From Geobacteraceae bacterium (lineage in GTDB: Bacteria; Desulfobacterota; Desulfuromonadia; Geobacterales; DSM-12255): a stretch of DNA of 45,390 nucleotides. Of the stretch, positions 19,402 through 40,005 are shown piece after piece. The stretch spans positions 13,660 to 59,049 of the forward strand of contig JACABD010000023.1 of the NCBI GenBank assembly GCA_013377075.1, written 5' to 3'. Positions within the stretch are counted from its first letter, which is position 1; each line of letters begins with the position of its first letter. Under the pieces are notes generated by a model, which was given only the letters and a program-made list of their open reading frames with translations, searched no databases and was not told the DNA's origin. Made by a program: the position numbers and the translations under genes.

Positions 19402-20609
19402 TGACTGTAGATATTTCCAGGCTGAAAATTGACAGGGGGAGTCAGGTCGCAACCGGTTCTTCGAAGAGTCGGCGCCGCTATATCATCATGCTGCTGCTTG
19501 CAGTGGTGCTGATTGCCTTCATTTTCAAGGCTGTTTCCATGCGTGCAATCGAGATCGAGACAGCCACTGTCACCATGCAATATCCGAGCAGCTCCTTCAC
19601 ACTTCTTAATGCCAGCGGCTATGTGGTTGCCCAGCGAAAGGCTGCACTTGCTTCAAAGGCTACCGGGCGCCTGGAATGGCTCGGTGTGGAAGAGGGGAGC
19701 CGTGTAAAAAGCGGCCAGGTGATAGCGCGGCTTGAGGGGCTTGATTCAGAAGCGTTGCAGAAACAGGCGAAGGCGTTGGTCGGTTCGGCAGCAGCAAACC
19801 GCGACCAGGCTGATGTGGAACTTAAGGATTCTGTGCGTTCCCTGAAGAGAAACCGGGAACTGCTGGCGCAAGGGATAGTTGCCCAGGCTGACTATGACGT
19901 TGCCGAGGCACGGGAAAACCGCGCCAGAGCCGCACTGGCTGCGGCAGAAGCTAATATATCCGTCTCAAGGGCAGCGCTTCAGGGAGCTGATGTGTCTGTC
20001 GACTACACAAAAATCCGAGCCCCCTTTGATGCTGTAGTCCTTACCAAAAATGCCGATGTCGGCGATATTGTCACCCCCCTTGGTGCGGCTGCCAATGCCA
20101 AGGCTTCTGTTGTCACCATTGCCGATCTTGCCTCCCTTCGGGTCGAAGTCGATGTCTCGGAATCGAGCCTGGAAAAGGTAAAGATCGGGCAGCCCTGTGA
20201 AATCCTCCTTGACGCACTTCCCCATAACCGCTTCAAGGGTCTTGTGCACTCGATTGTGCCGACAGCTGACAGAAGCAAGGCAACGGTGATGGTAAAGGTC
20301 AGTTTTGTTGATCGTGACCAGAGGATTCTCCCTGAGATGAGTGCCAAGGTTGCATTTCTTGAGCGTGCTGTGACCGGCGAGGAGCAAAAACCCAGGGTCA
20401 TGTTGCCTAAAAACGCGCCATTGGAGAGTGATGGTAAAAAGATCGTTTATCTGCTTGTTGATAACAGGGTCATTGAGACAAAGATTGAAGTTGTTGGCGG
20501 CAGTGGTGATCTGGTTGAGGTGAAAGGGGTCAAAGTCGGTGACAAAGTAGCTCTTAAGCCCCTTGGCAAGCTTTCCAACGGAACAAAGGTTAAAGTCGCA
20601 CAAAAGTAA
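19401..20609 (+). CDS. MacA/HlyD-type periplasmic adaptor (402 aa)
   Basis: Membrane-fusion protein: one N-terminal TM (about 27-46), lipoyl half-motifs (GYVVAQRKAALASKATGRLE and the second half after the hairpin), an alpha-helical hairpin (about 110-190), the beta-barrel domain with KIRAPFDAVVLTKNADVGD, and a membrane-proximal C-terminus. It bridges the inner-membrane ABC transporter to an outer-membrane component. The ATG shares one base with the cytochrome stop. The matching ATPase and permease are two genes downstream; no TolC-like gene is nearby. Confidence 0.9.
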   Translation: MTVDISRLKIDRGSQVATGSSKSRRRYIIMLLLAVVLIAFIFKAVSMRAIEIETATVTMQYPSSSFTLLNASGYVVAQRKAALASKATGRLEWLGVEEGSRVKSGQVIARLEGLDSEALQKQAKALVGSAAANRDQADVELKDSVRSLKRNRELLAQGIVAQADYDVAEARENRARAALAAAEANISVSRAALQGADVSVDYTKIRAPFDAVVLTKNADVGDIVTPLGAAANAKASVVTIADLASLRVEVDVSESSLEKVKIGQPCEILLDALPHNRFKGLVHSIVPTADRSKATVMVKVSFVDRDQRILPEMSAKVAFLERAVTGEEQKPRVMLPKNAPLESDGKKIVYLLVDNRVIETKIEVVGGSGDLVEVKGVKVGDKVALKPLGKLSNGTKVKVAQK

Positions 20610-20622
20610 ACCGGGGGCGCAA

Positions 20623-22404
20623 ATGCAGAATACCTTTTCAAAACCGATTGTCAGGGAGATTGCCTTGAGACTGAACTCCCTGATTCTGTTGCTGCCCGTA
20701 TGCATTTTACTTTTTGCAGCCTCAGCCTATTCGGCGCCATCTTCCGATTTCAGAAAAATCAAGGTTGCAGTTCTCGACTTTCAGCAGAACGGCCAGTTTG
20801 AAACCAGCGATATCGGCAAGATAGTAGCTGAATGGTTTACAACTACCCTTGTTGATTCCGGTCGTTTCGAGATCATTGAACGCCGCCTTCTCCAGCAGAT
20901 TCTCGATGAACAGAAAATCGGTGCGTCAGGGCTTATCGATCCGAGGAGCGCATCGCAACTTGGACGTCTTCTCGGAGTCAATACCGTGGTGAGCGGCACT
21001 GTACAGAGTTATGATCGAACATTCGAGCTGAATACCCGGCTCATAGATGTCGAGACAGGTTCCATAATAATTGCTGAAAGTGTCAAGGCAAGTTCAACCT
21101 CCTCCCTTAACGCCCTTGTCAAGCAGGTTGCTGACAAGATGATCCGCTACTTTCCCTTGAACGGATATGTGGTCCAGCGAACAGGTGAAAAGGGGGTCAT
21201 CGATCTTGGACGTAAGGCCGGTATTCATCCGGGAATGGTTTTCAAGGTTTTTGTCGAAGGCAAACCGTTGAAGCATCCAATGACCGGGGAGATCCTCTCT
21301 GTTGAAAGAATCGAGAAGGGGGTCATCAGAATCAAAGAGGTAAAGGACAAGACTTCAATCGGTGATATTGAAAAGGAGAACTGCCAGAACTGCATTAAGG
21401 TCGGTCATCTTGTCAGTGCCGTTCTTGCCGAAGATGATATGCCGTCCGAACCGTCTCCAGCACCAAGTACCGAGCCTGCTCCTGCGCCGGTCAAGGTAGC
21501 GCCGCCACCTCCTAAAACTTCTCTGCCTGCCGGTGTTTTTAAAATATTAAATGGCACCAGAAATGATATCAAGGCTACTGCTGTTGCAAACAACGGTTCA
21601 TTTGCCGCTACTGTCGATACAAGCGGCAATATCTCCCTCTGGGATATCAAGACCTGGAATCTGATAGAGACCTTCAAAGACAGCCGTGGGGCACTGAATG
21701 CAGTTGCCTTCAGCCCTGACTCGAAACTTGTTGTGACTGGTGGAAACGACAAGGAAGCGATAGTCTGGAGTATTGTCGACAAAAAGCCGATCTACAAGCA
21801 GAAGGTCAGGGATAAGATAACATCTATTGTCTTTGCCGGAGATTCTGCCGTTGCCATAGGCACTGACAGTAAACGATTCTTTGTCTGGGAGTATAAAAGT
21901 GGCGGGGATCCGCTCAGGGTCTCGACCGGCAGGGAAATACTTGCTCTTGCAGCAAGCCCTGACGGCAGGCAGATCGCAACCGGCAGTAGCGATAATGAAG
22001 TCTCGATCTGGGACAGTGCAAAAGGCGAAAAAATCCACAGCCTCAAGGGACATGACGGCAATATCAGGACCATACTTTATAGCCCCGGTGGCAAGTGGCT
22101 TTTTTCAGGGGCTGAGGACAAGCAGGTCATTATCTGGGATCCGCTCTCAGGCCGCCAGATTCGCAAACTCTCCGGTCATAACAATGACGTGCTATTCCTT
22201 GCTGTCAGCTCAGACGGTAGAAGGCTTGCCTCTTCAGATTCCAAAAAGAGTGATGGAACCATGATTGTCTGGGATACAACCAGTGGCGCCGAACTGAAAC
22301 GATTCACTTCGCCCAAGAGAGTTAGTTCCTTTGCCATGACACCTAACGGCAGGTATGCTCTTGGCGGTGTGGATAAAGATATGTATGTATTCTCTCTTGA
22401 TTAA
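20623..22404 (+). CDS. CsgG-like domain fused to WD40 repeats (593 aa)
   Basis: ATG 20623 follows a GGGGG site; a longer frame begins inside the adaptor gene. Signal peptide (SLILLLPVCILLFAASAYSA, no lipobox). Residues about 27-160 resemble the CsgG family (KVAVLDFQQNG, ERRLLQQILDEQ, LGVNTVVSGTVQSYDRTFEL). About 175-270 resembles a FlgT-type C-terminal domain (GRKAGIHPGMVFKVF). A Pro-rich linker leads to a WD40-like propeller (about 330-590; SLWDIKTW, IVWSIVDK, SIWDSAKG, IIWDPLSG, IVWDTTSG). A periplasmic or outer-membrane scaffold is likely. Sits between adaptor and ATPase genes in one operon. Confidence 0.85.
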   Translation: MQNTFSKPIVREIALRLNSLILLLPVCILLFAASAYSAPSSDFRKIKVAVLDFQQNGQFETSDIGKIVAEWFTTTLVDSGRFEIIERRLLQQILDEQKIGASGLIDPRSASQLGRLLGVNTVVSGTVQSYDRTFELNTRLIDVETGSIIIAESVKASSTSSLNALVKQVADKMIRYFPLNGYVVQRTGEKGVIDLGRKAGIHPGMVFKVFVEGKPLKHPMTGEILSVERIEKGVIRIKEVKDKTSIGDIEKENCQNCIKVGHLVSAVLAEDDMPSEPSPAPSTEPAPAPVKVAPPPPKTSLPAGVFKILNGTRNDIKATAVANNGSFAATVDTSGNISLWDIKTWNLIETFKDSRGALNAVAFSPDSKLVVTGGNDKEAIVWSIVDKKPIYKQKVRDKITSIVFAGDSAVAIGTDSKRFFVWEYKSGGDPLRVSTGREILALAASPDGRQIATGSSDNEVSIWDSAKGEKIHSLKGHDGNIRTILYSPGGKWLFSGAEDKQVIIWDPLSGRQIRKLSGHNNDVLFLAVSSDGRRLASSDSKKSDGTMIVWDTTSGAELKRFTSPKRVSSFAMTPNGRYALGGVDKDMYVFSLD

Positions 22405-24648: not shown

Positions 24649-24738
24649 AAATTTCATGTATACGCCCTTGTCGTATTCAATGGCTTCCTAATTGCACAAG
24701 TTATATGACCAGCAAGCATTTCAGTTTTACTCCATCCT

Positions 24739-27321
24739 TTGTCAGCCTTGAATTTCAGCGGGAACAGACCTGTAGTGAACATACCATTATCTGATTTGAA
24801 ATCGATTAACCTCTTTTCCGGCCTTGTCGAAAGCGACCTGTTGCGTATCTCTTTATGTCTGCAAAAATGTGTATTTTTGTCCAATTCGGTCATTTTGTCC
24901 AAAAGTGATGAGGCTGACTCACTCTATTTCGTCATTAGTGGCACAGTACGGGTCGAACTGACGGATTCCTCCGGGCAGATCTTCAATATTGTCGAAATCG
25001 GCCCTGGCGAACATTTTGGCGAACGTGCCATACTTACCGGAGAGCCGCGCACTGCCGATGTACGGGCCATCACAGCACAAGTCGTTGTCGCCAAATTGCC
25101 GCGGGAGGATTTCGAGGGTCTGCTCTTAGAGGCACCGCTTCTCTATGCAAACCTCTGCAGGTATCTGGCCATGCAGCTTGGCAGCTGGGCCCAGCGTCAT
25201 CGCCGTGAAGAAAGCGAACACAGGGAGGTAATGACCAATCTGAGCGGCTGGCAGCTGCTTCCGGAGTTCGGCTCCTTTCCGGGAAATTCCGCCTGGGTCA
25301 GAAATCTCAACAGCCGTCTGGCAGCTCTCGGTAATTCTGAAAAAAATGTCCTCATCCTGGGCGAGCCGGGCACATGGAAGGATCTTGCTGCCCGGCTGAT
25401 TCATTTTCATGGCGGTGCTGTCAGGCCGGTGCTCTTCCTCGACTGTGCGACGCCGCCACCTCTGGCTCCGCTGGTGGAACGGTCAAAGTGTGCTGACTCA
25501 ATTGGCTTGAGTCAGTCTCTGGCGCTCTTTGGCAAAGCAGCTGAAAAGGCAGACTCAGTGCGGGCTCGCAAAGGTATGCTTGAACTGGCATCGGGTGGCG
25601 ATTTAATCCTGCGCAATATCGACTGCCTGACAGCTGGGGTGCAAAGCTCGCTGTTGTCATATATTGACGAGGGGAGGGGAGGGGAAAGCTCTTTCAGAAA
25701 CGGCCCGGTAAGGATTATCGCAACCAGTGGCGCACCCCTGGCAAGGCAGGCTGAAAGCGGCATCTTCAATGAAGCCCTGTATGCAAAGCTCTGCCAGGAG
25801 ACCATTGTCATGTCACCGCTGCGCAAGCGCAAAAGGGATATACCTGTCATTGCCAGAAGCCTGCTCCGCACCCTCAATGGCAAGTATCACAAGGGGGTGG
25901 TCAGGCTTTCCCAGGATGCCCATAACCGCCTGGTTGACCACGACTGGCCCCTGAACGGCACCGAGCTTTATCAGGTCCTGAGCCGTGCCGTGCTGGTCTG
26001 CTCAGGGGAAGCGATACTTTCCGAGCATATTTTTCTTCAGGGAAAGCAGTTCCAATCGGGCCGGCTCAATCTGCTCTCTCTGCCGGATCTGGAGCGGCTT
26101 GCCAGGCGGCCGGAATTCCCGCGCCTGCTTCGCTGGACAACTGTGCCGCTCTTTCTGCTGGTTCTCTTCGGTACGCTGCTTGGGGCTGAAACTGACAATG
26201 CCGCAAATCTTGCGGTCTGGACCCTCTGGTGGCCGGCTCTGCTTCTGACCGGGTTTCTCTTTGCCCGTGGCTGGTGCAGTTATTGCCCGCTTGAGGCAAT
26301 GGGAGAATTTTTCGGCACACGCATCGGCGTGGGGCATGAGCCGTCATCGTGGTTGCAGAAATACGGAACTGCCATCAGTCTCTCGCTCTTTGTTATTATT
26401 TTCCTTGCAGAACAGGCAACAGGGATGTTTTCCCACCCATACGCCACTGGTCTTTTGCTGCTGATTCTCCTTGTCAGCACTGTCGGCGGCGACCTATTGC
26501 TTGGCCGCCGTGGATGGTGCAAGCACCTCTGTCCCCTCGGGAGGATCGTCAGTCTTGCTTCGCGCATCTCTTTTCTGGAGATGCACAGTAATCATAATGT
26601 CTGTGCAAGCCGCTGCAAGGTTGATGACTGTGTCAAAGAGAAGGGGTGTCCCATGGGGCTGCACCCGTCAGGGATCGATAATTCCGACCACTGTGTTCTC
26701 TGCCTCGACTGCGTCCGCAACTGCCCCCACCACTCCATGGAGCTTGACCTGCGCAGCCCTGCCAGCGGCCTCTCAAACCATGGCCGCAGCGGTTTTGTTG
26801 AGGCGATGTTCAGCATCACCGTTGTCGGGCTGATTATCGCCGTCAAGTTAACGCCGTACTTCTATCACGGTCGCGTTCAATCGGCTCTCTGGAGCATGGG
26901 GGAGTTCTTTACGGCCATGCTCATAACAGGCTCATTTGCAGCATGTGCAATGATCTTCTCCATTGGGGTGCGGCGCCAGAGGTGGAAAGCATCCTTTGCC
27001 ATCTGCGGAACCGCATACATTCCCATCGCCCTGACCGGACTTTTTATCTTTTACTTCAGGGAGTTTGTCTTGAGGGGAGAAAATCTTGTCCCCTGGATGC
27101 TACGCGGATTCCATCTTGGCCGGCTGTTCGATGCAGAACGGTTGACACCGGAGCTCGGTACGCTGCGAATGCTTGTCCCACCCATCATCATAGCCGGTGG
27201 TCTCTTCTCGATCAGCTCCCTCTCCAGTCTGGCGAAAGAGTACAACCTGAGCAGCATCAGCTACTTTGGGCATCGACTGCTGCTTATAGTGGCTACGGTG
27301 CTGCTGGTTTGTTTGGTATGA
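24739..27321 (+). CDS. cNMP-binding / degenerate AAA+ / membrane polyferredoxin fusion (up to 860 aa)
   Basis: Domain order: cyclic-nucleotide-binding-like beta barrel (about 17-135; VISGTVRVELTDSSG, GPGEHFGERAILTGEPRTA); a sigma-54-AAA+-like region (about 185-430) with altered Walker A GEPGTWKD and no GAFTGA; then a NapH/CcoG-like membrane part from about 470, with WCSYCPLEAMGEFFG (~510), WCKHLCPLGRIVSL (~594), a cluster CASRCKVDDCVKEKGCP (~622) and a 4Fe-4S motif CVLCLDCVRNCP (~653). Several more TM segments end the protein. It is probably a membrane electron-transfer protein with a cytoplasmic regulatory head; it should not activate sigma-54. Start unclear: TTG 24739 is the longest, GTG 24775 an alternative, and neither has a good ribosome site. 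Confidence 0.85.
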   Translation: MSALNFSGNRPVVNIPLSDLKSINLFSGLVESDLLRISLCLQKCVFLSNSVILSKSDEADSLYFVISGTVRVELTDSSGQIFNIVEIGPGEHFGERAILTGEPRTADVRAITAQVVVAKLPREDFEGLLLEAPLLYANLCRYLAMQLGSWAQRHRREESEHREVMTNLSGWQLLPEFGSFPGNSAWVRNLNSRLAALGNSEKNVLILGEPGTWKDLAARLIHFHGGAVRPVLFLDCATPPPLAPLVERSKCADSIGLSQSLALFGKAAEKADSVRARKGMLELASGGDLILRNIDCLTAGVQSSLLSYIDEGRGGESSFRNGPVRIIATSGAPLARQAESGIFNEALYAKLCQETIVMSPLRKRKRDIPVIARSLLRTLNGKYHKGVVRLSQDAHNRLVDHDWPLNGTELYQVLSRAVLVCSGEAILSEHIFLQGKQFQSGRLNLLSLPDLERLARRPEFPRLLRWTTVPLFLLVLFGTLLGAETDNAANLAVWTLWWPALLLTGFLFARGWCSYCPLEAMGEFFGTRIGVGHEPSSWLQKYGTAISLSLFVIIFLAEQATGMFSHPYATGLLLLILLVSTVGGDLLLGRRGWCKHLCPLGRIVSLASRISFLEMHSNHNVCASRCKVDDCVKEKGCPMGLHPSGIDNSDHCVLCLDCVRNCPHHSMELDLRSPASGLSNHGRSGFVEAMFSITVVGLIIAVKLTPYFYHGRVQSALWSMGEFFTAMLITGSFAACAMIFSIGVRRQRWKASFAICGTAYIPIALTGLFIFYFREFVLRGENLVPWMLRGFHLGRLFDAERLTPELGTLRMLVPPIIIAGGLFSISSLSSLAKEYNLSSISYFGHRLLLIVATVLLVCLV

Positions 27322-28968: not shown

Positions 28969-28986
28969 GTGTGTCGGAGGTGGCTT

Positions 28987-30252
28987 GTGCCTGTAACTGT
29001 TTTTGAGGCAATAAGGGGTGATGTTAGCTCTTTTCTGGGCAGAGCAGATGTTGATCTGCTTGAAGGTGAGGTTCAGGCTGACGACTGTATTCAGCAATTG
29101 GTCAACATTGAGAACCGAAGTTACACCTTTCTTGCCCGTCGTCCGGATTTGCCTTTTACCAAGGCAGAGGAGTCCTTTTCCCGTGAATTGATGACTGCTT
29201 TTGCCGGTCTTTATACAGGATTCAAGCTGGAAGGTTTTGCTGCCCATTTCCGTACCGCACTGCTTGCTTCGATCATGGACATAACCGTTGCCCGCTCACT
29301 GCGTGGTGATCGTAGTAAAGGTTTTTGGCCTATTCAGCAGTTGATCCAGTTGCTAAAGAAGCTCTCCTACCAGAGGTACGAAGGGACACCGGCAACAACC
29401 GGTTTCATCATTCACCGGACTACACCGGCAAAGCTCAAGAGTATCGTGAAGTTACGCTCCCATGTGCTGGTGCCGCTCACTCCCCCACAGGTAGTTACCA
29501 CCAGATTCTTCGACAATCCACTGACTTATCGACTGATTGATGGTACGAACCAGTTTTTTATTGCCAATATTCAGATGCAGGTGTCTGGAGCACTCAGGAT
29601 CGGTGACCATGCCGGGCAGAACAGTGTGGAACGCCTCACCCAGCGCGAACTTTTCTCCATCGTGAACCGATGCGGGATTGGCAGTTTTGCCCTTACTGTC
29701 AATGAATCTTCTGAAATCGAAGTACTTACCTCTCCGGCAAGGATTCTTGTTCGGAGAATGGGGGGGTGGAAAATATTCGACCCGGATATTTTCCGCTCTT
29801 TTCTCTGTGGCGTACTCGATGAAACTTCTGTCGACGATCTGCTCTGGACTGCATACGCCCTTTCCAAAAGCAGGCATGGTACGGTTATCCTGATCAATGG
29901 CGCCGGTAGCAGGGGGCTTGCAGCACTTAAGAAGGGCTCTGTCGGCGGTGATGATCCTGTCTGCAGGGCTCTGGTTAACAGGGCGAAACGAAGGAGTATC
30001 ACCGAGCTGAAGAAGAGCGGCACACTGCTCCGGATTCTGACCTCAGACGGCATGACGGTTTTTAATAATAACGGCAGATTGGTGGAGACCGGTTTTATCA
30101 TTGATACCTCCCATGTTCGCGAGGTTATAACCGGTGGCGGGCGCACTGCTGCGGCCAGTGCAGCCTCTTTTTTCGGGAAGGTTATCAAGGTCTCCCAGGA
30201 TGGACATATTGAGCTGTATGAGAAAGGCCGGATGATTTACCGATTCGGTTAG
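28987..30252 (+). CDS. Protein with a diadenylate-cyclase-like (DisA_N-type) C-terminal domain (421 aa)
   Basis: GTG 28987 is chosen because GGAGG lies 6 nt upstream. Residues about 1-200 are a soluble domain I do not recognise. The C-terminal part (about 285-421) follows the order of DAC domains: TVILINGAG, then SDGMTVFNNNG (cf. the DGA motif), then GGGRTAAASAASFFG (cf. the GTRHRAA region) and KVIKVSQDGHIELYEKG (cf. the VSEExG-type segment). The RHR triplet needed for cyclisation is replaced, so it may bind a nucleotide without making c-di-AMP. Single-gene unit ended by the terminator at 30272. Resemblance is by eye and moderate. Confidence 0.6.
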   Translation: MPVTVFEAIRGDVSSFLGRADVDLLEGEVQADDCIQQLVNIENRSYTFLARRPDLPFTKAEESFSRELMTAFAGLYTGFKLEGFAAHFRTALLASIMDITVARSLRGDRSKGFWPIQQLIQLLKKLSYQRYEGTPATTGFIIHRTTPAKLKSIVKLRSHVLVPLTPPQVVTTRFFDNPLTYRLIDGTNQFFIANIQMQVSGALRIGDHAGQNSVERLTQRELFSIVNRCGIGSFALTVNESSEIEVLTSPARILVRRMGGWKIFDPDIFRSFLCGVLDETSVDDLLWTAYALSKSRHGTVILINGAGSRGLAALKKGSVGGDDPVCRALVNRAKRRSITELKKSGTLLRILTSDGMTVFNNNGRLVETGFIIDTSHVREVITGGGRTAAASAASFFGKVIKVSQDGHIELYEKGRMIYRFG

Positions 30253-30482: not shown

Positions 30483-30968
30483 TTACTCCCCCCTTTTTGT
30501 TACGATAACTCCATTAATAGCAAGATCCGCAGAGATGATCTGGGCTACCTCTTTCAGCCTGCTCTTTACGACATCTGACAGCTGATCGCTGGCATCGAGT
30601 GATGCAGGGATAACACCGAGCAGAGTGACTTTCTCCGGGCAAAAACCGCGCAGCTCGCTCATCAAAAGCGTCTCCTGAATGCCGATCTGATGGGGTGAGA
30701 GCTTGACCGGAATCTTGTCGAGCATGATCTCATCCTTCTCATAGCGCCTCAGCTCACCCGGTGCTCCATTCCCTTCGATAACGTCAAGTATGTAGATATG
30801 ATCCGCTTCCTCAAACTTGTGGGTCACCATGATCCCCAGTGTGCCGCCGTCGTATAGCTCGACTTTTTCGGGAAAGTCGTAGTTTTCTTCCAGATATCTG
30901 ATGGCGTGAACTCCGAATCCCTCGTCAGAAAGAAGCAGGTTACCAGCGCCGAAAATCAATGTTTTCAT
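30483..30968 (-). CDS. hybD: [NiFe]-hydrogenase maturation endopeptidase (161 aa)
   Basis: HyaD/HybD family: GAGNLLLSDEGFG with metal-binding E16, ILDVIEG with D62, and KLSPHQIG with H93, the three nickel ligands. It removes the C-terminal peptide of the large subunit after nickel insertion, after the His of DPCxxCxxH. Sits downstream of the large subunit gene, separated by a palindromic repeat, and upstream of tatA. Confidence 0.95.
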   Translation of the reverse strand: MKTLIFGAGNLLLSDEGFGVHAIRYLEENYDFPEKVELYDGGTLGIMVTHKFEEADHIYILDVIEGNGAPGELRRYEKDEIMLDKIPVKLSPHQIGIQETLLMSELRGFCPEKVTLLGVIPASLDASDQLSDVVKSRLKEVAQIISADLAINGVIVTKRGE

Positions 30969-30989
30969 AAGGTTCCTTTTTTTACCATA

Positions 30990-31110
30990 ATAACGTCCGA
31001 TTTTGAGCCGAGGTCAAGGAAGGTGAGCAACCACGCGGAGGCGTAGCAGCGCTACACCGCACAAGATGGTTGCGATGCCTGACGCCGAAATCGGCCAAAA
31101 GCGGCGTTAT
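30990..31110. repeat. 121-bp palindromic repeat element A
   Basis: ATAACG...CGTTAT ends, then matching CCGATTT/AAATCGG, CAACC/GGTTG and a central GTAGC-AGC-GCTAC hairpin: one long interrupted hairpin with MITE-like design. It fills the gap between large-subunit and protease genes, and its end supplies the TAA stop of the large subunit (31107-31109). No coding frame or transposase. Confidence 0.6.
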
Positions 31111-32789
31111 AGTACTTTTACCTTTGTAATTTCTTTCCCTTCCGGATCAATCGTATGCACTGCACAGGCAATACACGGGTCGAAAGAGTGGATGGTGCGC
31201 AGTACCTCAAGCGGCTTGTCTTCCTGGACTACCGGGTTGCCGACAAGTGATGCCTCGTATGGTCCCATGACCCCTTTCTCATCACGTGGAGAAGCGTTCC
31301 AGGTGGATGGCACTACGGCCTGATAGTTCTTGATCTTCTTGTTGTCTATAACCATCCAGTGGGAGAGGGTGCCGCGGGGTGCCTCGTGGAAACCGACCCC
31401 TTTGTATTCGCCCTTTGGAATTTCGGTATGGTTGGCGTAGGTCTTGTCTCCCTTGCCGAGATTTTCAACGAGCTTATCAAGCTGATCAATAGCCATATCG
31501 GAGAGGAGATGGGCTCTGATAGCCCGTGCTCCGAGGCGACCCATGGTTGAGTGGAGGTCGGAGAGCTGGATGCCGATCTTCTGACAGGTGCTGTCTACCA
31601 GCTTCTTGACTTTCACATTCCCAGTAGCGTAGGCGGCAAAGAGCTGAGCCGGTGGGCCCACCTGGATAGGTTTACCTTCAAAACGTGGCGATTTGCACCA
31701 GCTGTACTTGCCGTTCTCCTGGAAGTCGGTGTACTCGGGTTTTGTCTCACCTTCCCATGGATGATGTGACGAAGAGCCTTCATACCAGGCGTGGGCAACA
31801 CCTTCACTGATGTTGTTGATCAGGTATGGGTCCTGATGGGTGGTGATCGGCTTGAAGGTTTTCAGGTCGCCGTTAAAGAAGACGCCACCGTTCATGGCGA
31901 ATTTGGTGTTTTTGGTGTCTTCAGGGAACTCCGGAACCGCCATGTAGTTGGTCACACCGGCGCCGTATTTGAACCACTCCTTGTAGGATGAGGCAATGGC
32001 GATCATGTCAGGATAGTAGACCTTCTGCACAAAATCACGGGTCTCTTCCATGAGGGTGCGCAGATAGGCAATCCGCTCCATGTTGAGGGTGGCCATGTTT
32101 TCGAGGTTGATAGCTGTAGCCACGCCGCCGACCACCAGGTTCTGGATGTGGGGGTTTTTACCGCCGAGAATGGCGACTGCCTGGGCAGCTTTCCGCTGGT
32201 AGTCGAGGGCTTTGAGGTAGTGGGCAGTGGCAATAAGATTCACTTCGGGAGAGAGTTTCATTGCCGGATGTCCCCAGTAACCCGAGGCAAAGATGCCGAG
32301 CTTGCCACCGGCAACAAAGGCTTTCAGTTTGTCCTGAACAGCCTTGAACTCCTTTTCGGAGTTTCCCGGCCAATCGGAGAGGCTCTGGGCGATCTGGGCA
32401 GCCTTTTTCGGGTCAGCTTTGAGTGCCGAGACAATGTCGACCCAGTCAAGGGCGGAGAGGTGGTAGAAGTGGACGATATGATCCTGAACCGAGTGCTGGG
32501 CGATCATGATGTTCCTAATGTACTGGGCATTCATCGGTACTTCAACCTTGAGGGCGTTCTCCACCGACCTGATTGAAGAGATAGCATGAACGGTGGTGCA
32601 GACGCCGCAGAAGCGCTGTGCTAGCGACCAGGCATCCTCTGGCGGTTTGCCTTTGAGGATGGTCTCGATGCCGCGCCACATCTGGGCTGACGACCATGCT
32701 TTGGAAACCTTGCCGTTATCTACTTCAACATCAATACGCAGGTGACCCTCTATGCGGGTGATTGGATCCAGAGTTATTCTTTTTGACAT
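31107..32789 (-). CDS. hybC: [NiFe]-hydrogenase large subunit (560 aa)
   Basis: Group 1 uptake hydrogenase. The N-terminal site RFCGVCTTVH (C61, C64) and C-terminal DPCIACAVH (C539, C542, H545) give the four nickel-iron ligands. A 15-residue tail (TIDPEGKEITKVKVL) follows His545 and is the expected substrate of the maturation protease. GGAG precedes ATG 32789. The active site oxidises H2 in the periplasm after Tat co-export with the small subunit. In Geobacter this gene is called hybL. Confidence 0.98.
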   Translation of the reverse strand: MSKRITLDPITRIEGHLRIDVEVDNGKVSKAWSSAQMWRGIETILKGKPPEDAWSLAQRFCGVCTTVHAISSIRSVENALKVEVPMNAQYIRNIMIAQHSVQDHIVHFYHLSALDWVDIVSALKADPKKAAQIAQSLSDWPGNSEKEFKAVQDKLKAFVAGGKLGIFASGYWGHPAMKLSPEVNLIATAHYLKALDYQRKAAQAVAILGGKNPHIQNLVVGGVATAINLENMATLNMERIAYLRTLMEETRDFVQKVYYPDMIAIASSYKEWFKYGAGVTNYMAVPEFPEDTKNTKFAMNGGVFFNGDLKTFKPITTHQDPYLINNISEGVAHAWYEGSSSHHPWEGETKPEYTDFQENGKYSWCKSPRFEGKPIQVGPPAQLFAAYATGNVKVKKLVDSTCQKIGIQLSDLHSTMGRLGARAIRAHLLSDMAIDQLDKLVENLGKGDKTYANHTEIPKGEYKGVGFHEAPRGTLSHWMVIDNKKIKNYQAVVPSTWNASPRDEKGVMGPYEASLVGNPVVQEDKPLEVLRTIHSFDPCIACAVHTIDPEGKEITKVKVL

Positions 32790-32833
32790 TTTATTTCTCC
32801 TGAATGTTTTTTGGAAACGTGATGAACTTTTTC

Positions 32834-32942
32834 ATAACTCCTCCTGTCCTCCCCTTATCTTAAGGGGAGGGACGCCTTATCAATCGACGAGCTGCGTTAG
32901 CACGTCCCCCCTCTTAAGCTAAGAGGGGACAGGGGGCGTTAT
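32834..32942. repeat. 109-bp palindromic repeat element B
   Basis: Outer arms ATAAC...CCTGTCC and GGACAGG...GTTAT enclose two inner hairpins (CTCCCCTTA/TAAGGGGAG and CCCCTCTTA/TAAGAGGGG), a cloverleaf-like layout. It fills the gap between the membrane-subunit and large-subunit genes, ending 3 nt before the membrane-subunit stop (32946). Confidence 0.6.
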
Positions 32943-32945
32943 GTA

Positions 32946-34211
32946 CTAGTGCCCATTAGCGTGATGGTTCGGGTTCGGCAGAACCGGTATAACCTTGACA
33001 AGAACCTGGTAGCCAAGAAGTTCAAGGGAGACGATTCCCGCAGTTATCATGAGCTCGGCGAACGAAGGGAAATAGTGCCATCCCTGGCCCGGATTAAAGC
33101 CGATGAGATAGACGTTGAAACGGTACAGAGCTCCGCCGAGCACCATCATTGCCGCTGATATAAAGAGCCAGCGGGGCGAGCGTCTCATTGTTTCACTAAA
33201 GAGGATAAATGATCCGCAAGCTATGAGCAGAAACTCAAGAAGGAAAAAGTTAGAGTAGAAGTCGAATTTCACGGCTGCTGCCAGCTGGCCGCGCCATGCC
33301 AGGTCACCTATTCTGACCGTAAGCCAGATAAGAGTCAGCCAGGGGATAATCTTAGAAAGTCCGCTCAGCTCTTTAACCTCAAAGGACCTGCCAAAACCGT
33401 ATGAGGAGATAATCGATTCGAGGATGACGATCCCATAGCCGATATAAACGCAGTTGATCAAAAAGAGCAGTGGCAGAAAACCGGTGTGCCAGAGCGGGTT
33501 GAGTTTGGTGGCGGCGATAAGCAGCAGTGAACCGAGAGATGACTGGTGCATTGTCGGCAGGGTGATGCCAAGGACGATGAAAAAGACCAGAAACTTCTCA
33601 AGACGCGGGCGGAGCCAGGCTGCAGAGCTTTTTACCCACTCCAGCCCTGATGCCATTTTTGCTTCATCGGGCACAAGGCGTGGATGGAGCCAGGTGGTTA
33701 CCTTCCTTAGTGTATTCCCCTTGCTGTTTTCCATGGACCAGAGCACTGCGGGGAGAAATTCGATGGCCAGAACCAGGGTGTAGGTCATGACGCAGAGGGC
33801 AACTTCGAACATTGCTGAATTGATCTGCCAGCGGGACGGCATGAAGAAGCCGTATGAGTTCCAGTAGCGGCCAAGGTCAATCATGACCGAGAAGCCGGCC
33901 AGGCCGTAGCCAAAGAGTGATGTGAGCAGGGCTGAGCGGATAAGCGGGTGATATTTCCAGTGGTTGCGGATGTAGATGAGGATTGCGACTGCATAACCAC
34001 CGCAGGCAATGGCTGTGCCGGTGGCAACGTCGTAGGCGATCCAGATTCCCCATGGATAGCCGTCGCTCATGTTTGATACTGCGCCGATCCCTTTTACATA
34101 GCGGACACCGATGAAGAAGAAGCCAATGAGGGTCAGGGTAAGAAGGACAAAGAAGGATTTGGTAAAGATCTTCCCTTCCTGTTTGATGAACTGTTCATGA
34201 TGTCCGGCCAT
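32946..34211 (-). CDS. hybB: Hydrogenase membrane subunit, HybB/NrfD family (421 aa)
   Basis: About ten hydrophobic segments, NrfD/PsrC-like, with GYPWGIWIAYDVATGTAIAC near the N-terminus typical of HybB. No heme motifs. It passes electrons from the FeS subunit HybA to quinone and anchors the complex. The ATG shares 1 nt with the hybA stop. Confidence 0.95.
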   Translation of the reverse strand: MAGHHEQFIKQEGKIFTKSFFVLLTLTLIGFFFIGVRYVKGIGAVSNMSDGYPWGIWIAYDVATGTAIACGGYAVAILIYIRNHWKYHPLIRSALLTSLFGYGLAGFSVMIDLGRYWNSYGFFMPSRWQINSAMFEVALCVMTYTLVLAIEFLPAVLWSMENSKGNTLRKVTTWLHPRLVPDEAKMASGLEWVKSSAAWLRPRLEKFLVFFIVLGITLPTMHQSSLGSLLLIAATKLNPLWHTGFLPLLFLINCVYIGYGIVILESIISSYGFGRSFEVKELSGLSKIIPWLTLIWLTVRIGDLAWRGQLAAAVKFDFYSNFFLLEFLLIACGSFILFSETMRRSPRWLFISAAMMVLGGALYRFNVYLIGFNPGQGWHYFPSFAELMITAGIVSLELLGYQVLVKVIPVLPNPNHHANGH

Positions 34212-35164
34212 TATTTGTGCTCCTCCCCTTTGCCGGAATTCTCATCCGCTGTTTTCTTTTGGTCGGATATTTCATCCTGCTTCTTCTGGTTCTTTATGGC
34301 TATGAAGCAGAGTGTTGAGTAAAGAGCTACCGGAGCGATGAAGCCTTTGTAAATGGTGTGCTGAATCCTTTCGGAAAACTCGGCAGGAGCAGCTGTGGGC
34401 AGAACAGGGAGTCCGAGCTTGTTGTACGGTACTGCAGCCAGATAGAGGTGGTTTGTGCCGCCAAGTTCGTGCTCGCCGTAAACGGACTGAATATAACGGC
34501 CCGGATTTTCTTTCAGGCGGGTATGGGCAATTTCCAGTAGATCCTTTCTTTTGCCAAAGGTGATCGCTCCCACCGGACAGGTTTCGGCGCAGGCGGTGAT
34601 CCCTTTTTGTTTAAGATTAGTGCTCTTGCAGAGGTCACACTTGACGATCTGTGGAACGGTCTTTTCCCACTGGAATTTAGGAATGTTGAAAGAACAGCCG
34701 ACCTGGCAGTAACGGCAACCGATGCAGGTGTCCTTGTTGTAGTCGATGATTCCGGTAATCTTGTCCTTTGACATGGCGCTTACCGGGCAGACCGAGACGC
34801 ATGAAGGTTTCTGGCAGTGCATACAGGAGTATTTAACATAGGACCATTTTGCATCGGACTCCTTGTAGAGTTTGATCAGAGTCCTTGTGCTGCCGGAAAG
34901 ATCCTGCGGTGCATCCCAGATGCCATCCTTGTCGAATGGCGCCTTTTCATAGGATAGATTGCCAAAATCGCCGTTTACCCGTTTGCAGGCGGTCATGCAG
35001 GCCTTGCAACCGACGCACATGGTGGCGTCATAGAGCATTCCCAGCGCCTCGTTATTGACCTGTCCATGTTCTGATGCGCCTGCAATACCGGCTTTGCAGG
35101 TCAAAAGAGCAGCGCCGCCAAAACCGATTGTTTTCAAAAAACCTCTGCGGCTCTGTTTACTCAT
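34211..35164 (-). CDS. hybA: Hydrogenase FeS electron-transfer subunit HybA (317 aa)
   Basis: ATG 35164 is chosen: GAGGAG precedes it and a Tat signal follows at once (SRRGFLKTIGFGG). Four ferredoxin cysteine groups: CVGCKACMTACK, CMHCQKPSCVSVCP, CIGCRYCQVGCS, and CDLCKS with CAETCP. A C-terminal hydrophobic helix (APVALYSTLCFIAI) anchors it. It connects the small subunit to HybB. It overlaps the small-subunit stop by 8 nt. Confidence 0.95.
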   Translation of the reverse strand: MSKQSRRGFLKTIGFGGAALLTCKAGIAGASEHGQVNNEALGMLYDATMCVGCKACMTACKRVNGDFGNLSYEKAPFDKDGIWDAPQDLSGSTRTLIKLYKESDAKWSYVKYSCMHCQKPSCVSVCPVSAMSKDKITGIIDYNKDTCIGCRYCQVGCSFNIPKFQWEKTVPQIVKCDLCKSTNLKQKGITACAETCPVGAITFGKRKDLLEIAHTRLKENPGRYIQSVYGEHELGGTNHLYLAAVPYNKLGLPVLPTAAPAEFSERIQHTIYKGFIAPVALYSTLCFIAIKNQKKQDEISDQKKTADENSGKGEEHK

Positions 35165-36272
35165 CCTTTTTCTCCTCATCACCCATGTCGCTGTCTTTAG
35201 GAAGTTTCTTTGCCAGCATTGCCCCGGCTCCAAGGGCTGCCCCGGCGGCAAGACCGAGAACTCCGGTGGTAAGAGGATCAGCCCCCTTGCCCTTATCCTT
35301 GAGGTTTACATTGGCATAGGTGTCAGGTGGTGTCGGCATGTGGATCTGAACCTTTTCTGAAATAGGCTTCTTGAAGAGGATATCAGGTTCTGTGCAGCCG
35401 ATGCAGGGATGACCGATCGAAACCGGCCAGGCACCGACGTCGTTGAAACGCTGTACCGAGCAGTTGGCGAAAGTCTCAGGCCCTTTGCAGCCGAGCTTGT
35501 AGAGGCAGTAACCTTCAGCATGGGTTGGATCGCCGTATTTAAGTGCAAAACGGCCTGCGTCGAAGTGTGGACGACGCTCGCAGTGTTCGTGAATTTTGCG
35601 GCCATAGGCAAACATTGGTCGGCCCAGGGCATCAAGATCAGGCAGTTTCTTGAAGGTGAGGAAATACATGACAGTTGAGAGGAAGCTGTGGGGGTTTGGC
35701 GGGCAGCCGGGGATGTTGATGATAGGCTTGTCTTTGATAATGTCTCTTACTCCGACTGCTCCGGTCGGGTTCGGTGCTACTGACTGAATGCCGCCGTAGC
35801 TGGCGCAGGTGCCGACCGGGATTATGGCTGCCGCACCTTCTGCAAGATGTCTCAAACTTTCCAGCGAGGTCTTTCCTGCTACCTTGCAGTAAATGCCGTT
35901 ATCTTTAGTCGGGATAGCACCTTCGACTACGAGAATATACTTCCCCTTGTTGGCGGTCATGGAGTCGTGGAGGGATTTCTCTGCCTGATGTCCGGAGCCT
36001 GCCATCAGTGTCTCGTGGTAGTCGAGGGAGATCATGTCGAGAATCAGGGTTGATATTGTCGGGTGGGACGAGCGAAGGAGCGATTCGGAACATCCGGTGC
36101 ACTCCTGAAAGTGAAGCCAGATAACAGCCGGGTTCTTGTTGGTTTCTACTGCTTCTGCAAGCTTTACATGCATGGCTAACGGTAGCCCCAGCATTGCCGT
36201 GACGGATGCGCACGTTTTCATGAAATCTCTTCGGGTTACTCCGGCACAGAAATACTCTTCGTCTTTTTTCAT
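35157..36272 (-). CDS. hybO: [NiFe]-hydrogenase small subunit (371 aa)
   Basis: ATG 36272 is chosen: AAAGGA precedes it, a Tat signal TRRDFMKTCASV follows, and the longer frame would start inside the sigma-54 promoter. FeS cysteines include CTGCSESLLR (proximal cluster), GTCASYGG, PGCPPNPHS, and CPxIGCTEPD-type HPCIGCTEPD. A C-terminal hydrophobic stretch (GVLGLAAGAALGAGAMLA) serves as membrane anchor. Relays electrons from the NiFe site. First gene of the operon; called hybS in Geobacter. Confidence 0.97.
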   Translation of the reverse strand: MKKDEEYFCAGVTRRDFMKTCASVTAMLGLPLAMHVKLAEAVETNKNPAVIWLHFQECTGCSESLLRSSHPTISTLILDMISLDYHETLMAGSGHQAEKSLHDSMTANKGKYILVVEGAIPTKDNGIYCKVAGKTSLESLRHLAEGAAAIIPVGTCASYGGIQSVAPNPTGAVGVRDIIKDKPIINIPGCPPNPHSFLSTVMYFLTFKKLPDLDALGRPMFAYGRKIHEHCERRPHFDAGRFALKYGDPTHAEGYCLYKLGCKGPETFANCSVQRFNDVGAWPVSIGHPCIGCTEPDILFKKPISEKVQIHMPTPPDTYANVNLKDKGKGADPLTTGVLGLAAGAALGAGAMLAKKLPKDSDMGDEEKKDE

Positions 36273-36328
36273 ATTCAGTCCTTTTTGGTAGAGTGTCAGC
36301 CCTGATGCAAAAAGCTCGTACCAATACA

Positions 36329-36343
36329 GCAACTCCCTTGCCA
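36329..36343 (-). promoter_or_regulatory. Sigma-54 promoter of the hydrogenase operon
   Basis: Minus strand TGGCAAGGGAGTTGC followed by T, against TGGCACG-N4-TTGCW: exact spacing, perfect -12, one mismatch in -24. Predicted start about 36317, giving a 45-nt leader to ATG 36272. A divergent sigma-54 activator gene starts at 36615. Confidence 0.75.
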
Positions 36344-36451
36344 AAGTTTAATGATAAATGTAACTGTTTTTGGATCCGCTAATTAGCCGAAATTACGATG
36401 TTTTGTGATTGTGATCTCGGTAAGTTATATTTCAGGCTATTCCACTCTTGC

Positions 36452-36614: not shown

Positions 36615-37964
36615 GTGGCAAAGGCAAAAATACTAATCTGCGATGATGAGGCGGAAATCCTTCGCTATCTGAAGAAAATACTTGAAGGTGAGGGGTATCA
36701 TGTGGAGACTTACAGCTCCGGTACTGAGCTGATCAGTCGACTCGAAGGCTCCGGATTTGCCGATCTGCTCCTACAGGATATGCGCCTTCCCGATATGGAT
36801 GGTCTGACTATTTTTAACCAGACCAGAAGAATAAGGCCCGATCTGCCGGTGGTCATAATGACCGCCTACGGGTCCATAGATACGGCAGTGGATGCCATAA
36901 AACTCGGAGCCTACGACTACATCACCAAACCGTTCCCCAAGGAGAAGCTTTTGGGGATTCTTGCCAATATCTTCGAACGGCAGCAGCTTAAGGAGGAGAA
37001 CCGCAAGCTCAAGGAGGATCTGCAGGTTAAGGCACCACAACTGGTATTCAGGAGCCGCCAGTTCCGCGAAATTTACGACTTCACTCTGCAGGTTGCGGCC
37101 AGTGACAGTAATATTCTTATCCTTGGTGAATCGGGAACAGGCAAGGAGCTGATTGCCTCAACCATCCACAATTCGAGCCAGCGCCGTGGGAAAACCTTCT
37201 ACTCAATTAACTGCGCCGCACTGACCGAGACACTTTTGGAAAGTCAGCTCTTCGGCCATGTCCGTGGTGCCTTTACTGGAGCCTTTTCCACCCAGAAGGG
37301 TATTCTTGCCGAGTCCGATGGCTGCACTCTGTTTCTCGATGAAGTAGGTGACATGAGCCTGGCTGTGCAGGCAAAACTGCTGCGGGTAATTCAGGAGGGG
37401 GAGTTCATTCCTGTCGGCAGCACCAGGCCACAATCGGTGGATATCCGTTTTGTGGCTGCCACCAACAGGGATCTTGAGCAGGAGATGCGCTCAGGCCGTT
37501 TCCGTGAAGACTTCTACTACCGCTTGAATGTTATTACCATAAACCTGCCGCCGCTACGTGAGCGTCCTGATGATATCGAGCCGATGGCGTTGCATTTCCT
37601 TGAGCGCTTTTCCAAGCGGATGAAAAAACAGGTGACAGCAATTTCTGCGGCTGCTCTGGAAATGCTGATAAACTACCAGTGGCCGGGAAATGCCAGGGAG
37701 CTTGAGAATGTCATGGAGCGCGCCGTCATTCTTGCCCGTACAAATGAAATTACTGTTGACACGCTGCCAATCTGGAAAAAGGATGGCTCCCAGCTTGCAA
37801 ATGCCAGTGGCGGTTCACTTTCGCTGGAGGCTCTGGAAAAGGAGCATATCCGTGCTGTATATGAGGCAAACAGCCAGAACAAGAGCAAAACTGCGGAACT
37901 GCTCGGAATATCGCGCAAAACCCTTGACCGGAAAATTGTCGAATACGGGCTGGGCAGTCGATGA
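36615..37964 (+). CDS. NtrC-family sigma-54-dependent response regulator (449 aa), probable hydrogenase activator
   Basis: Receiver domain (about 1-120) with D10/D11 and phosphoacceptor D55 in [16 protein letters not shown]+ domain (about 140-375): Walker A GESGTGKE, intact sigma-54 loop GAFTGA, Walker [24 protein letters not shown]-terminal Fis-type HTH (about 405-446; [16 protein letters not shown]). GTG start follows GAGGAGGAA. Followed by its kinase gene and divergent from the hydrogenase operon, whose promoter is sigma-54 type; HoxA/HydG-like control of the hydrogenase is the simplest reading. Confidence 0.93.
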
Positions 37965-38013: not shown

Positions 38014-40005
38014 ATGTTGAAACGGCGCTTTCCCATCAGAACCAAGCTGACGGTTGCCACCATTTTACCACTTTCCGTGGCAATACTCATCTGCACCATA
38101 GCCAGCTTCTCCATCCTCCTGACAAAGATAGGTTCCCAGGCCCAGGAGAAAGTCCGCAGTGACTTGAATGCAGCCCGGGAGATTTACCAGCGCGAGATAG
38201 ACCACCTCCGCGATATTGTCCGCTTTACGGCAACAACCCCTTACGTTGCCGACTCTCTGAAAAAGATTGATAAAGCCCACCTTGGCGCAGTTCTTGAGCC
38301 GCTTTTGAACAGCGAAAAACTTGATCTTTTTGGCGTTGTCGATGCTGGCGGAACAGTTGTCTTCCGTGCCCATAACCGCACTACTACCGGTGATGACCTT
38401 TCCAGGGATTATCTTGTCAAACGTGCCTTGAAAGGGGAAACCATTGCCGGTACAACTGTACTGCCCAAGTCAAGGCTGGAAAAGGAAGGGGAATATATTA
38501 CGAGTCGGGCGCTGATAAATATCCGTCCAACTAAATTTGCCGTACCTTCAACCAAAACTGTTGAGGATAGCGGCATGTTTCTCATTGCCGCCGCACCTGT
38601 AAGGGCACGAGGTGGGGCCATTGTCGGTGCTATCTACTGCGCAGTCCTTCTTAACAATAACAACGAGCTGGTAGACAGGATAAAAAATGTCGTTTCAGAA
38701 GGTGGCAAAGCCGATAACAAAAGTTCGGCCACCTCCTCCATTATTCTCAATGATGTCCGCATTGCCACCAATGTCATCGGCTCTGACAGTCAGCGCTCCA
38801 TCGGCACCAGGATCTCCGAGGAGGTTTACCGGCGGGTTGTGCTGATGAACGAAAAGTGGATTGACCGGGCTTTTGTGGTGAACGACTGGTATTTTAGTGC
38901 CTATGAACCGATTAGTTCACTTGAAGGTGCGCCCCTTGGCGCTTTCTATGTTGGTATGCTGGAGAAACCATATACCCGTCTGAAATTTAATATTATTCTT
39001 TTGATCAGCTCTGTACTTTTGATCAGCGGTTTGATGGGAACTGTCGTTGCCCGTGCAGCCGCTTCCCGCCTTGCATATCCGATCAAGGAGCTTGAGTCTT
39101 TTGCACGCAATCTTGCTGCCGGACGCCGTGGTGAGCGAATCGAAAAGGTAAGTGACGATGAGATTGGTGATCTGGCAGACGCCTTCAACAGGATGTCTGC
39201 GGCCTTGACTGAAAAGGAGACCGAAATCCTTGAGCTCAACAGGAGCCTGGAGGTGAAGGTTCATATCCGCACAGCAGAACTTGAGGAGAAGAGCAGGCTT
39301 CTCGTCGAGGCCAAGGAGGATCTGTCCAAAGCCGAGCGACTGGCCGCCATTGGTGAGCTGGCAGCCGGTGTTGCCCATGAGATCAACAACCCGCTTTCCA
39401 TAATCAGGGGTAACAGTGAGCTGCTGCAGATGGATCTACCCCCGGATTCCAGCTCCCTTGAAGAGGTCGACATCATATCCAGAGCCGTTGGCAGGATAGA
39501 GAGGATTGTTGCTAATCTGCTCAAATTTGCACGGCGCGAAAACAAGCGGATCGGCAGGGTGGAGATTGCTTCCATGCTTGAGGAAATTCTCTCCCAGGTC
39601 GGTCATCAGGTCCCTCTGGAGGGGATTACCATTGAGAGATGTCTGGACCAAAATGTCGAGATTGAGGGTGATTCCGACCAGTTGCACCAAGTGTTCACCA
39701 ACCTTGTTCTTAACGCAGTACAATCAATGCCAGAAGGCGGCCTGTTGACGGTTTCTGACTGTAGTGCGGCTGATGACGGAGGGTGCGAGGTTATTGTCAG
39801 CGATACAGGTACGGGAATATCTGCAGAAAATCTCGAAAAGATCTTCAACCCGTTCTTCACCACCAGAAGTCAAGGGACAGGGCTTGGACTCTCCGTCTCC
39901 TACGGTATAGTTAAGGACCATGATGGAGAGATTACAGTTGAGAGTCGTCAGGGAGTTGGTACGAGCTTTAAAGTAAAACTGCCGCTGTCACAGTCTGATA
40001 AATAA
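38014..40005 (+). CDS. Membrane sensor histidine kinase with Cache-type periplasmic domain (663 aa)
   Basis: TM1 about 12-35, a large periplasmic domain (about 36-320) with Cache-like sequence, TM2 about 325-345, then HAMP (YPIKELESFARNLAAGRRGE), a coiled coil, HisKA with H-box VAHEINNPLSIIRGNSEL, and HATPase (NLVLNAVQSM, SDTGTGI, GTGLGLSVSY). It senses an extracellular or periplasmic ligand and should phosphorylate the regulator encoded 49 nt upstream. The start follows a GAGG site. Confidence 0.92.
   Translation: MLKRRFPIRTKLTVATILPLSVAILICTIASFSILLTKIGSQAQEKVRSDLNAAREIYQREIDHLRDIVRFTATTPYVADSLKKIDKAHLGAVLEPLLNSEKLDLFGVVDAGGTVVFRAHNRTTTGDDLSRDYLVKRALKGETIAGTTVLPKSRLEKEGEYITSRALINIRPTKFAVPSTKTVEDSGMFLIAAAPVRARGGAIVGAIYCAVLLNNNNELVDRIKNVVSEGGKADNKSSATSSIILNDVRIATNVIGSDSQRSIGTRISEEVYRRVVLMNEKWIDRAFVVNDWYFSAYEPISSLEGAPLGAFYVGMLEKPYTRLKFNIILLISSVLLISGLMGTVVARAAASRLAYPIKELESFARNLAAGRRGERIEKVSDDEIGDLADAFNRMSAALTEKETEILELNRSLEVKVHIRTAELEEKSRLLVEAKEDLSKAERLAAIGELAAGVAHEINNPLSIIRGNSELLQMDLPPDSSSLEEVDIISRAVGRIERIVANLLKFARRENKRIGRVEIASMLEEILSQVGHQVPLEGITIERCLDQNVEIEGDSDQLHQVFTNLVLNAVQSMPEGGLLTVSDCSAADDGGCEVIVSDTGTGISAENLEKIFNPFFTTRSQGTGLGLSVSYGIVKDHDGEITVESRQGVGTSFKVKLPLSQSDK

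Follow-up and report, generated by a model that had tools for sequence, protein, structure and literature searches.

Within a 45,390-nucleotide stretch of DNA from a Geobacteraceae bacterium (GenBank assembly GCA_013377075.1, contig JACABD010000023.1; hereafter the window), a single uninterrupted open frame at 24739–27321 on the plus strand, called with a TTG start, encodes an 860-amino acid (aa) protein that joins three modules in one chain: a CRP-like head of the type that binds cyclic nucleotide monophosphates (cNMP), a degenerate AAA+ module of sigma-54 activators and a nine-helix membrane polyferredoxin. This architecture is genuine and conserved, and our searches turned up no earlier description of it. 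The reading that we favor, with a confidence no better than even, is that the fusion protein carries out membrane electron transfer under the control of a second messenger.

The three-part order had been proposed in a first-pass annotation of this DNA and was recovered both by full-length homologues and by a Pfam search, which placed cNMP_binding at residues 46–129 (4.9e-21), Sigma54_activ_2 at 182–361 (9.5e-16), Sigma54_activat at 182–354 (6.2e-15), AAA_lid_14 at 362–434 (1.1e-12) and Fer4_5 at 571–609 (7.4e-7), as well as Fer4_7 at 651–674 under its cut-off. The same search found no helix-turn-helix in the fusion protein. Two AlphaFold2 models have mean predicted local distance difference test (pLDDT) values of 72 and 76, with parts of the cluster loop below 50. 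The first residues of the homologues in a 19-row alignment coincide with a region near residue 13 of the called frame, so that the GTG codon at that position is probably the true start.

Full-length homologues with 56–65% identity were found in 18 of 57 other related genomes, including three whose listing gives a single contig (G031, G033 and G043), as had been anticipated for unnamed relatives. The frame is intact, and the fused order, far from being replaced by separate parts, is common among the homologues. We then used the membrane part alone as a query against 141 genomes of the order. Matches at E<1e-200 were obtained in 31 genomes, source genome included, followed by four divergent matches (G070, G075, G104 and G097; 1e-96 to 1e-110) that are shown to be fused, and the next-best match beneath these reached only 2.7e-12. 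Open frames of the order-level matches span 782–984 aa, the shortest being that of G112, and are long enough to hold the head; two others are partial, namely the truncated G101 and G123, whose start lies 85 bases from the end of a contig. At E≤1e-14, the membrane part was matched in 61 of 277 genomes of the class and in 73 of 395 genomes of a phylum sample, where fused proteins occur alongside stand-alone polyferredoxins of about 460 aa from the same superfamily and proteins in which the N-terminus is of another kind. For example, polyferredoxins at the loci L150, L160, L161 and L162 carry non-AAA+ N-termini, and the membrane module thus accepts other heads. Two strict peptide patterns, the reach of which is confined to close relatives, gave 22 loci among 84,980 species genomes, all titled Geobacter, Geomonas, Citrifermentans, Oryzomonas, Geobacteraceae, Desulfuromonas or Desulfuromonadales. 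In agreement with the first-pass annotation, which knew of no system of this order, none with this architecture was found in the open-licence literature as judged by titles and abstract openings. Two duplicated loci, L116 (a copy of L051) and L048 (a copy of L111), were excluded from the neighborhood, motif and tree work.

The AAA+ module retains its fold and has lost its catalytic motifs. Its model matches NtrC4 with Z 23.2 and root-mean-square deviation (rmsd) 3.2 over 237 residues. The altered Walker A motif GEPGTWKD and the missing GAFTGA loop, both previously pointed out, were confirmed in the window protein, which also lacks the Walker B Asp-Glu pair (DLILRN replaces LFLDEI), the first arginine finger and the sensor-II arginine. 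For a survey of these motifs, 58 family heads were aligned with 14 genuine activators as a control, 11 of which are loci of the best AAA+-only matches in the 57-genome search. The 58 heads do not include L141, whose match began too early for the filter, the headless truncated L129 and partial L130, or L131, L150, L160, L161, L162 and L166, which have no AAA+ head. The GAFTGA motif is kept in none of the 58 heads (four share at least three of its six letters), nor is the Walker B acidic pair (Asp in two, Glu in eleven, second residue N, H or other) or the first arginine finger (a gap in five). Arginine occupies the second finger position in eight heads and the sensor-II position in three (L125, L134 and L136), being absent from the latter in the other 55, and the Walker A lysine is retained in 55. 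Each of the 14 controls has all five features, from Walker A and the loop through the acidic pair and the finger to the sensor-II arginine, some with the variants GAFTDA, GSFTGA, GAFSGA or DD. The AAA+ part, as judged by its motifs, is a pseudo-ATPase family-wide and an old one, predicted to have lost ATP hydrolysis.

The tryptophan of the altered Walker A motif was found in all 35 heads of the window's branch and never in the other 23, and the 35 heads coincide exactly with the tree branch that holds the window (support 95/79). Since 19 of the 23 non-Trp heads retain GxxGxGK, the loss of Walker B probably preceded that of Walker A. The altered motif is itself kept, with a mean column identity of 96% over 23 rows. 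Bacterial enhancer-binding proteins such as NtrC, FleQ and PspF have the AAA+ core and lid fold in common with the fusion (Z 23), whereas the fusion lacks their GAFTGA loop, Walker B pair, first arginine finger and DNA-binding helix-turn-helix and is membrane-anchored instead; the NorR and NifA models match it at 6.5e-29 and 1.1e-27, far under their cut-offs.

The ligand pocket of the head is retained. Both the cNMP-binding fold and a phosphate-binding cassette of the form GE..R[ST]A are present, and pLDDT across the domain is mostly 76–91. The head model aligns with cyclic AMP (cAMP)-bound GlxR (3r6s) over 144 residues (Z 20.6, rmsd 1.8), and among the 50 structure entries listed, the matches to the head are CRP-type proteins crystallized with cAMP, with Z about 20. 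The cassette was found in 41 of 42 untruncated members of a wider clade: 34 of 35 in the window's branch, where the exception, L050, reads RSS, and all seven sister-group members tested (L118–L123 and L133). A doubtful stretch in L138 that fitted the pattern as well was left out of the counts. The head looks functional by these features and is predicted to bind a cyclic nucleotide. The CRP-type receptors GlxR, Clr and mycobacterial CRP share its beta-roll, cassette and long C-helix; unlike them, the fusion has no helix-turn-helix and is joined to the pseudo-AAA+ and membrane redox modules. Several relatives have added input domains, such as the FHA and cNMP domains heading L146 and the GAF and cNMP domains heading L141 and L147. 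An additional N-terminal stretch also precedes the cNMP–AAA–polyferredoxin order at L148:6921–9791.

At least two cysteine groups had been predicted in the membrane module; four were found, all invariant in the 19-row alignment. Hydropathy gave ten segments, or nine after an overlapping pair at residues 561–590 was merged, in agreement with the AlphaFold2 helices. With the head placed inside, hydropathy predicts that both Cys-Pro motifs and both cluster loops are cytoplasmic. In a pattern check, the first motif (CX2CP) occurs in 70 of 70 sequences and the second (CX3CP) in 69; the pattern for the third and fourth groups missed 8 of 17 distant rows and 1 of 11 stand-alone rows. The conserved cysteines are putative ligands of [4Fe-4S] clusters, and the module is predicted to transfer electrons. 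Its NapH-like character, noted earlier, agrees with PF12801 (Fer4_5; 29.5 bits against a curated cut-off of 22) and with a weak match to the napH model TIGR02163. CcoG is presumably a further relative.

The known proteins closest in organization are NapH, NosR and RdhC (PceC), which likewise pair Cys-Pro motifs on the side predicted to be cytoplasmic and have iron-sulfur loops and Fer4_5. This family is defined, in an excerpt of PMC5928378, by two CX3CP motifs, whereas the first motif of the fusion is CX2CP, and the third cluster motif of the fusion is atypical (CX3CX4CX5CP). Its TIGR02163 score (NapH/MauN subfamily) is 38.2 bits against a cut-off of 213.05. NosR and PceC possess an extracytoplasmic N-terminal flavin mononucleotide (FMN) domain, in contrast to the fusion, which has a cytoplasmic sensor head and no FMN-binding Pfam match. 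Parts of PMC5928378 and PMC8238504 describe NapH as quinol-oxidizing and NapH-like proteins as modular electron conduits, and propose a quinol-oxidizing or electron-conduit role for NapH, NosR and RdhC. By analogy, a NapH-type conduit function may be assumed for the membrane part, without assigning the fusion to NapH.

Features of the fusion gene and of its candidate regulation (window coordinates; residues are those of the called frame)
Feature	Coordinates	Strand	Basis
Fusion gene: cNMP-binding head, pseudo-AAA+ module, membrane polyferredoxin	24739..27321	+	860 aa as called
Likely true start codon GTG, residue 13	24775..24777	+	homologue starts align there
CRP-like cyclic-nucleotide-binding domain with C-helix, residues ~20–150	24796..25188	+	Pfam, model, fold match
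Phosphate-binding cassette GERAILTGEPRTA, residues 94–106	25018..25056	+	alignment, pocket pattern
Sigma-54-activator-type AAA+ core, degenerate catalytic motifs, residues 182–361	25282..25821	+	Pfam, alignments, fold match
Altered Walker A GEPGTWKD, residues 208–215	25360..25383	+	alignment
Lost Walker B, DLILRN, residues 288–293	25600..25617	+	alignment
AAA+ lid without sensor-II arginine, residues 362–434	25822..26040	+	Pfam, alignment
Membrane polyferredoxin module, nine predicted helices, residues 459–860	26113..27318	+	Pfam, hydropathy, models
CX2CP motif, C513 and C516, predicted cytoplasmic	26275..26289	+	alignment, hydropathy, pattern check
CX3CP motif, C594 and C598, predicted cytoplasmic	26518..26535	+	alignment, hydropathy, pattern check
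Atypical cluster motif CX3CX4CX5CP, C622–C637	26602..26652	+	alignment, pattern check
Classical [4Fe-4S] motif CX2CX2CX3CP, C652–C662	26692..26727	+	alignment, pattern check
Sigma-54 (-24/-12) promoter-like site TGGCTTCCTAATTGCA, 9/11 consensus positions	24681..24696	+	scan upstream of fusion
NtrC-type response regulator, candidate activator of the site at 24681	36615..37964	+	61% to relatives; putative link
Cache-HAMP histidine kinase, probable partner of the NtrC-type regulator	38014..40005	+	relative 53%

Genes of cyclic nucleotide metabolism were found beside fusions of the sister branch, which was counted over seven rows (L118–L123 and the truncated L129, with L118 and L119 from one genome). 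Gene calls around the relatives were heuristic, and antisense frames were picked in some GC-rich loci. In five of the seven rows, a gene with a metallo-beta-lactamase fold lies 0–2.7 kb from the fusion; the best Pfam match of the two tested is Apyc1 (1.2e-33 and 4.5e-26), and the best solved relatives of one such phosphodiesterase are Apyc1 chains (3.4e-26). Apyc1 is described in part of PMC9117128 as cleaving cyclic mononucleotides with broad specificity. The family PF23023 occurs in three of 141 genomes of the order (E≤1e-10), every time less than 3 kb from the fusion (hypergeometric p 9e-6, or 2e-5 with the truncated G101 counted as a fusion; not corrected for kinship). Class III cyclases are located near the fusion in L120, L121, L122 and the truncated L129, and in another lineage a cyclase gene is divergent from the L148 fusion, 252 bp away. 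The sensor domains of those examined are a receiver (L120 and L121), CHASE2 (L129) and Cache-HAMP (L148). Together with the pocket kept in 41 of 42 members, these neighbors make a cyclic nucleotide the likelier of the two inputs considered in the first-pass annotation, a nucleotide or a pseudo-ATPase head.

Among other lineages, a Ser/Thr kinase gene follows the FHA- and cNMP-headed L146, and likewise its close relative L163, which is cut by a contig end. A flavodoxin-like gene, read from its translation, abuts the fusion in L139 and L143 (the latter with a weak WrbA match and none in Pfam), and a multi-heme cytochrome gene lies 1.2 kb from the L144 fusion. A GAF-GGDEF gene follows the fusion in L051, and GGDEF genes were seen near some other loci too. 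A GGDEF cyclase as a constant partner was dropped, as in L164 and L165 a set of the same kind (GGDEF, regulator and EB_dh) goes with a stand-alone polyferredoxin instead. This set, in which the stand-alone polyferredoxin (L051:15994–17526, L164 and L165) is accompanied by GAF-GGDEF, NtrC-type regulator, EB_dh-like, CarboxypepD_reg and HEAT-like genes, is apparently a separate redox gene set. The heuristic gene calls revealed no conserved operon partner for the window's branch; an upstream ABC set, with names read from translations, is common to five Geomonas loci and two others, and the window's ABC set differs from it.

In the mechanism that we propose, the fusion would be a membrane redox protein that faces the cytoplasm and is controlled by a signal. 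A NapH/NosR-type polyferredoxin, formed by the last 400 residues with all iron-sulfur groups toward the cytoplasm, would connect the membrane, most likely its quinone pool, with a soluble carrier of low potential (ferredoxin or flavodoxin-like), and electrons would move between the two. The N-terminal domain would bind a cyclic nucleotide second messenger, and the AAA+ module, now neither an ATPase nor able to contact sigma-54, may serve as a rigid relay or oligomerization scaffold that transmits the state of the head to the iron-sulfur loop, so that electron flow is opened or closed. The gating, the ligand, the electron partners and the direction of flow are what we infer here, beyond the computed anatomy, motif loss, conservation and neighbor genes of relatives. 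More tentatively still, and with somewhat less confidence than in this mechanism, the family may represent electron valves gated by second messengers, a widespread class so far undescribed, in which a polyferredoxin is switched allosterically through a dead sigma-54-activator AAA+ module, with phospho-peptide or GAF ligands in some relatives and a cassette of sensor-cyclase, phosphodiesterase and valve in the sister branch. Second messengers are known mainly as controllers of transcription, channels and enzymes. Members of the Geobacter group make their living by electron transfer and, if the reading is true, could adjust electron flow post-translationally by switching a membrane iron-sulfur carrier directly; the AAA+ fold of sigma-54 activators would then clearly have been repurposed to do nothing but relay a signal.

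Several observations weigh against second-messenger control of electron transfer. The window gene has neither a neighboring cyclase nor a phosphodiesterase, and two cyclases used as queries gave no cyclase match within the window at E≤1e-5. No neighbor conserved across the window's branch, by the heuristic gene calls, indicates an electron donor or acceptor. The pocket arginine is mostly lacking outside the clade, and only L148 of the 16 distant members clearly has the cassette. No useful solved relative of the membrane module was obtained by sequence or fold. H845 is the sole invariant histidine outside the cluster loop in the 19-row alignment, which makes a heme site unlikely and leaves the quinone site putative. 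In a survey of the order that includes some incomplete genomes, a PF00211 (class III) cyclase (E≤1e-8) was found in 15 of 31 window-branch genomes and not in the remaining 16, compared with 68 of 110 other genomes; thus, a positive co-occurrence of cyclases with the window's branch was not seen. A class I cyclase was detected in none of the 141 genomes. In the 16 branch genomes in which neither cyclase class was found, the ligand would come from another enzyme or would not be a classical cNMP.

Upstream of the fusion gene, we identified a sigma-54 promoter-like site. Sites with at least 9 of 11 consensus positions precede 14 of 35 window-branch members, window included, compared with 22 of 395 other genes of the same loci (Fisher p 4e-8, not corrected for kinship) and 2 of 35 in the opposite-strand control; this other-gene control supersedes a first scan, in which sites with at least 10 of 11 positions were seen in 7 of 39 loci against a shuffle mean of 0.14. 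The site is absent from all six sister-group and all 16 distant members, and most Geomonas members are also without it. In L032 and L036, the fusion and a relative of the window's NtrC-type regulator are arranged head-to-head, and a regulator of this family lies less than 1.2 kb from the fusion in L032, L036, L051, L134 and L136 (five of 59 fused loci), compared with 9.3 kb in the window. The fusion gene is probably under a sigma-54 promoter driven by an NtrC-type regulator.

The same site and nearby regulators, together with the clear membership of the AAA+ part in the activator family by fold match, also fit a reversed flow of the signal, which we consider unlikely. The polyferredoxin would then sense how reduced or oxidized the membrane or the ferredoxin pool is, and the pseudo-AAA+ head, by binding to or mixing with genuine sigma-54 activators such as the nearby NtrC-type regulator, would act on transcription as a brake or tether anchored in the membrane, with the cNMP domain as a second input; NosR, according to part of PMC5928378, was initially described as a regulator. 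However, the fusion lacks the helix-turn-helix, GAFTGA and first arginine finger, 54 of 59 fused loci have no regulator that close (by heuristic calls, with many loci short), and the heads bear several input domains, as expected of a receiver.

The loss of catalytic motifs and the stand-alone existence of the membrane module would also suit an ordinary NapH/CcoG-like redox protein, the head of which is a decayed fossil that aids only folding or assembly. We find this more doubtful than the reversed signal, as conservation of the head is similar to that of the membrane part: the mean column identity is 0.74 for the cNMP domain, 0.77 for the AAA core and 0.88 for the lid, compared with 0.78–0.80 for the first four helices, 0.89 for the cluster loop and 0.70 for the C-terminal helices. 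Retention of the pocket and the signaling genes that match the head and adjoin the fusion in relatives likewise speak against it.

The sister-branch neighbors recall the Pycsar/Apyc1 systems, which also place a cNMP domain on a membrane effector and have in common with the sister-branch loci a cyclase and an Apyc1-like phosphodiesterase nearby. The fusion might accordingly be imagined as an antiphage effector, with infection eliciting a cyclase product and the membrane protein damaging the redox balance of the cell. PADLOC PycC models match the neighboring cyclases, PycTIR matches the cNMP domain, and the phosphodiesterase is closer to Apyc1 than to other solved metallo-beta-lactamase-fold enzymes. 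We regard this as quite improbable, since the PADLOC matches span generic domains, the cyclases examined bear sensor domains and the effector here is an iron-sulfur protein; moreover, the window gene carries the sigma-54-like site and has no such gene beside it, including the pyrimidine cyclase in the same operon that characterizes Pycsar. Finally, the idea that two normal genes were joined artificially during sequencing or assembly retains practically no credibility: it is already refuted by the recurrence of the same order in 18 of the 57 related genomes, of which three are listed as single contigs, as well as elsewhere in the order, class and phylum.

Other genes of the window are also of note. 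A 427-aa protein with no confident family is encoded 1.6 kb from the fusion (28969–30252, plus strand); residues 298–421 show a sub-threshold match to DAC (DisA-type, diadenylate cyclase; E 0.069), and it is possibly another nucleotide-signaling gene near the fusion. On the minus strand (30483–36344), [NiFe] hydrogenase genes read from translations, including the large subunit (31107–32789) and a maturation protease (30483–30968), stand with further genes in the interval that separates the fusion from the NtrC-type regulator and its kinase. In L111, which neighbors the window in the tree, the fusion also has a relative of the large-subunit gene at a distance of 5.1 kb. A wider link between fusion and hydrogenase is unsupported, with a large-subunit relative near none of 57 other fused loci; a local link is possible. 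Within an ABC/MFP-like gene set, a CsgG-like domain is fused to a WD40 propeller (20563–22404, plus strand). The genes at 41281–42024 and L051:2787–4510 belong to a common family of unknown function, and one L051 copy is fused to an ion-channel domain.

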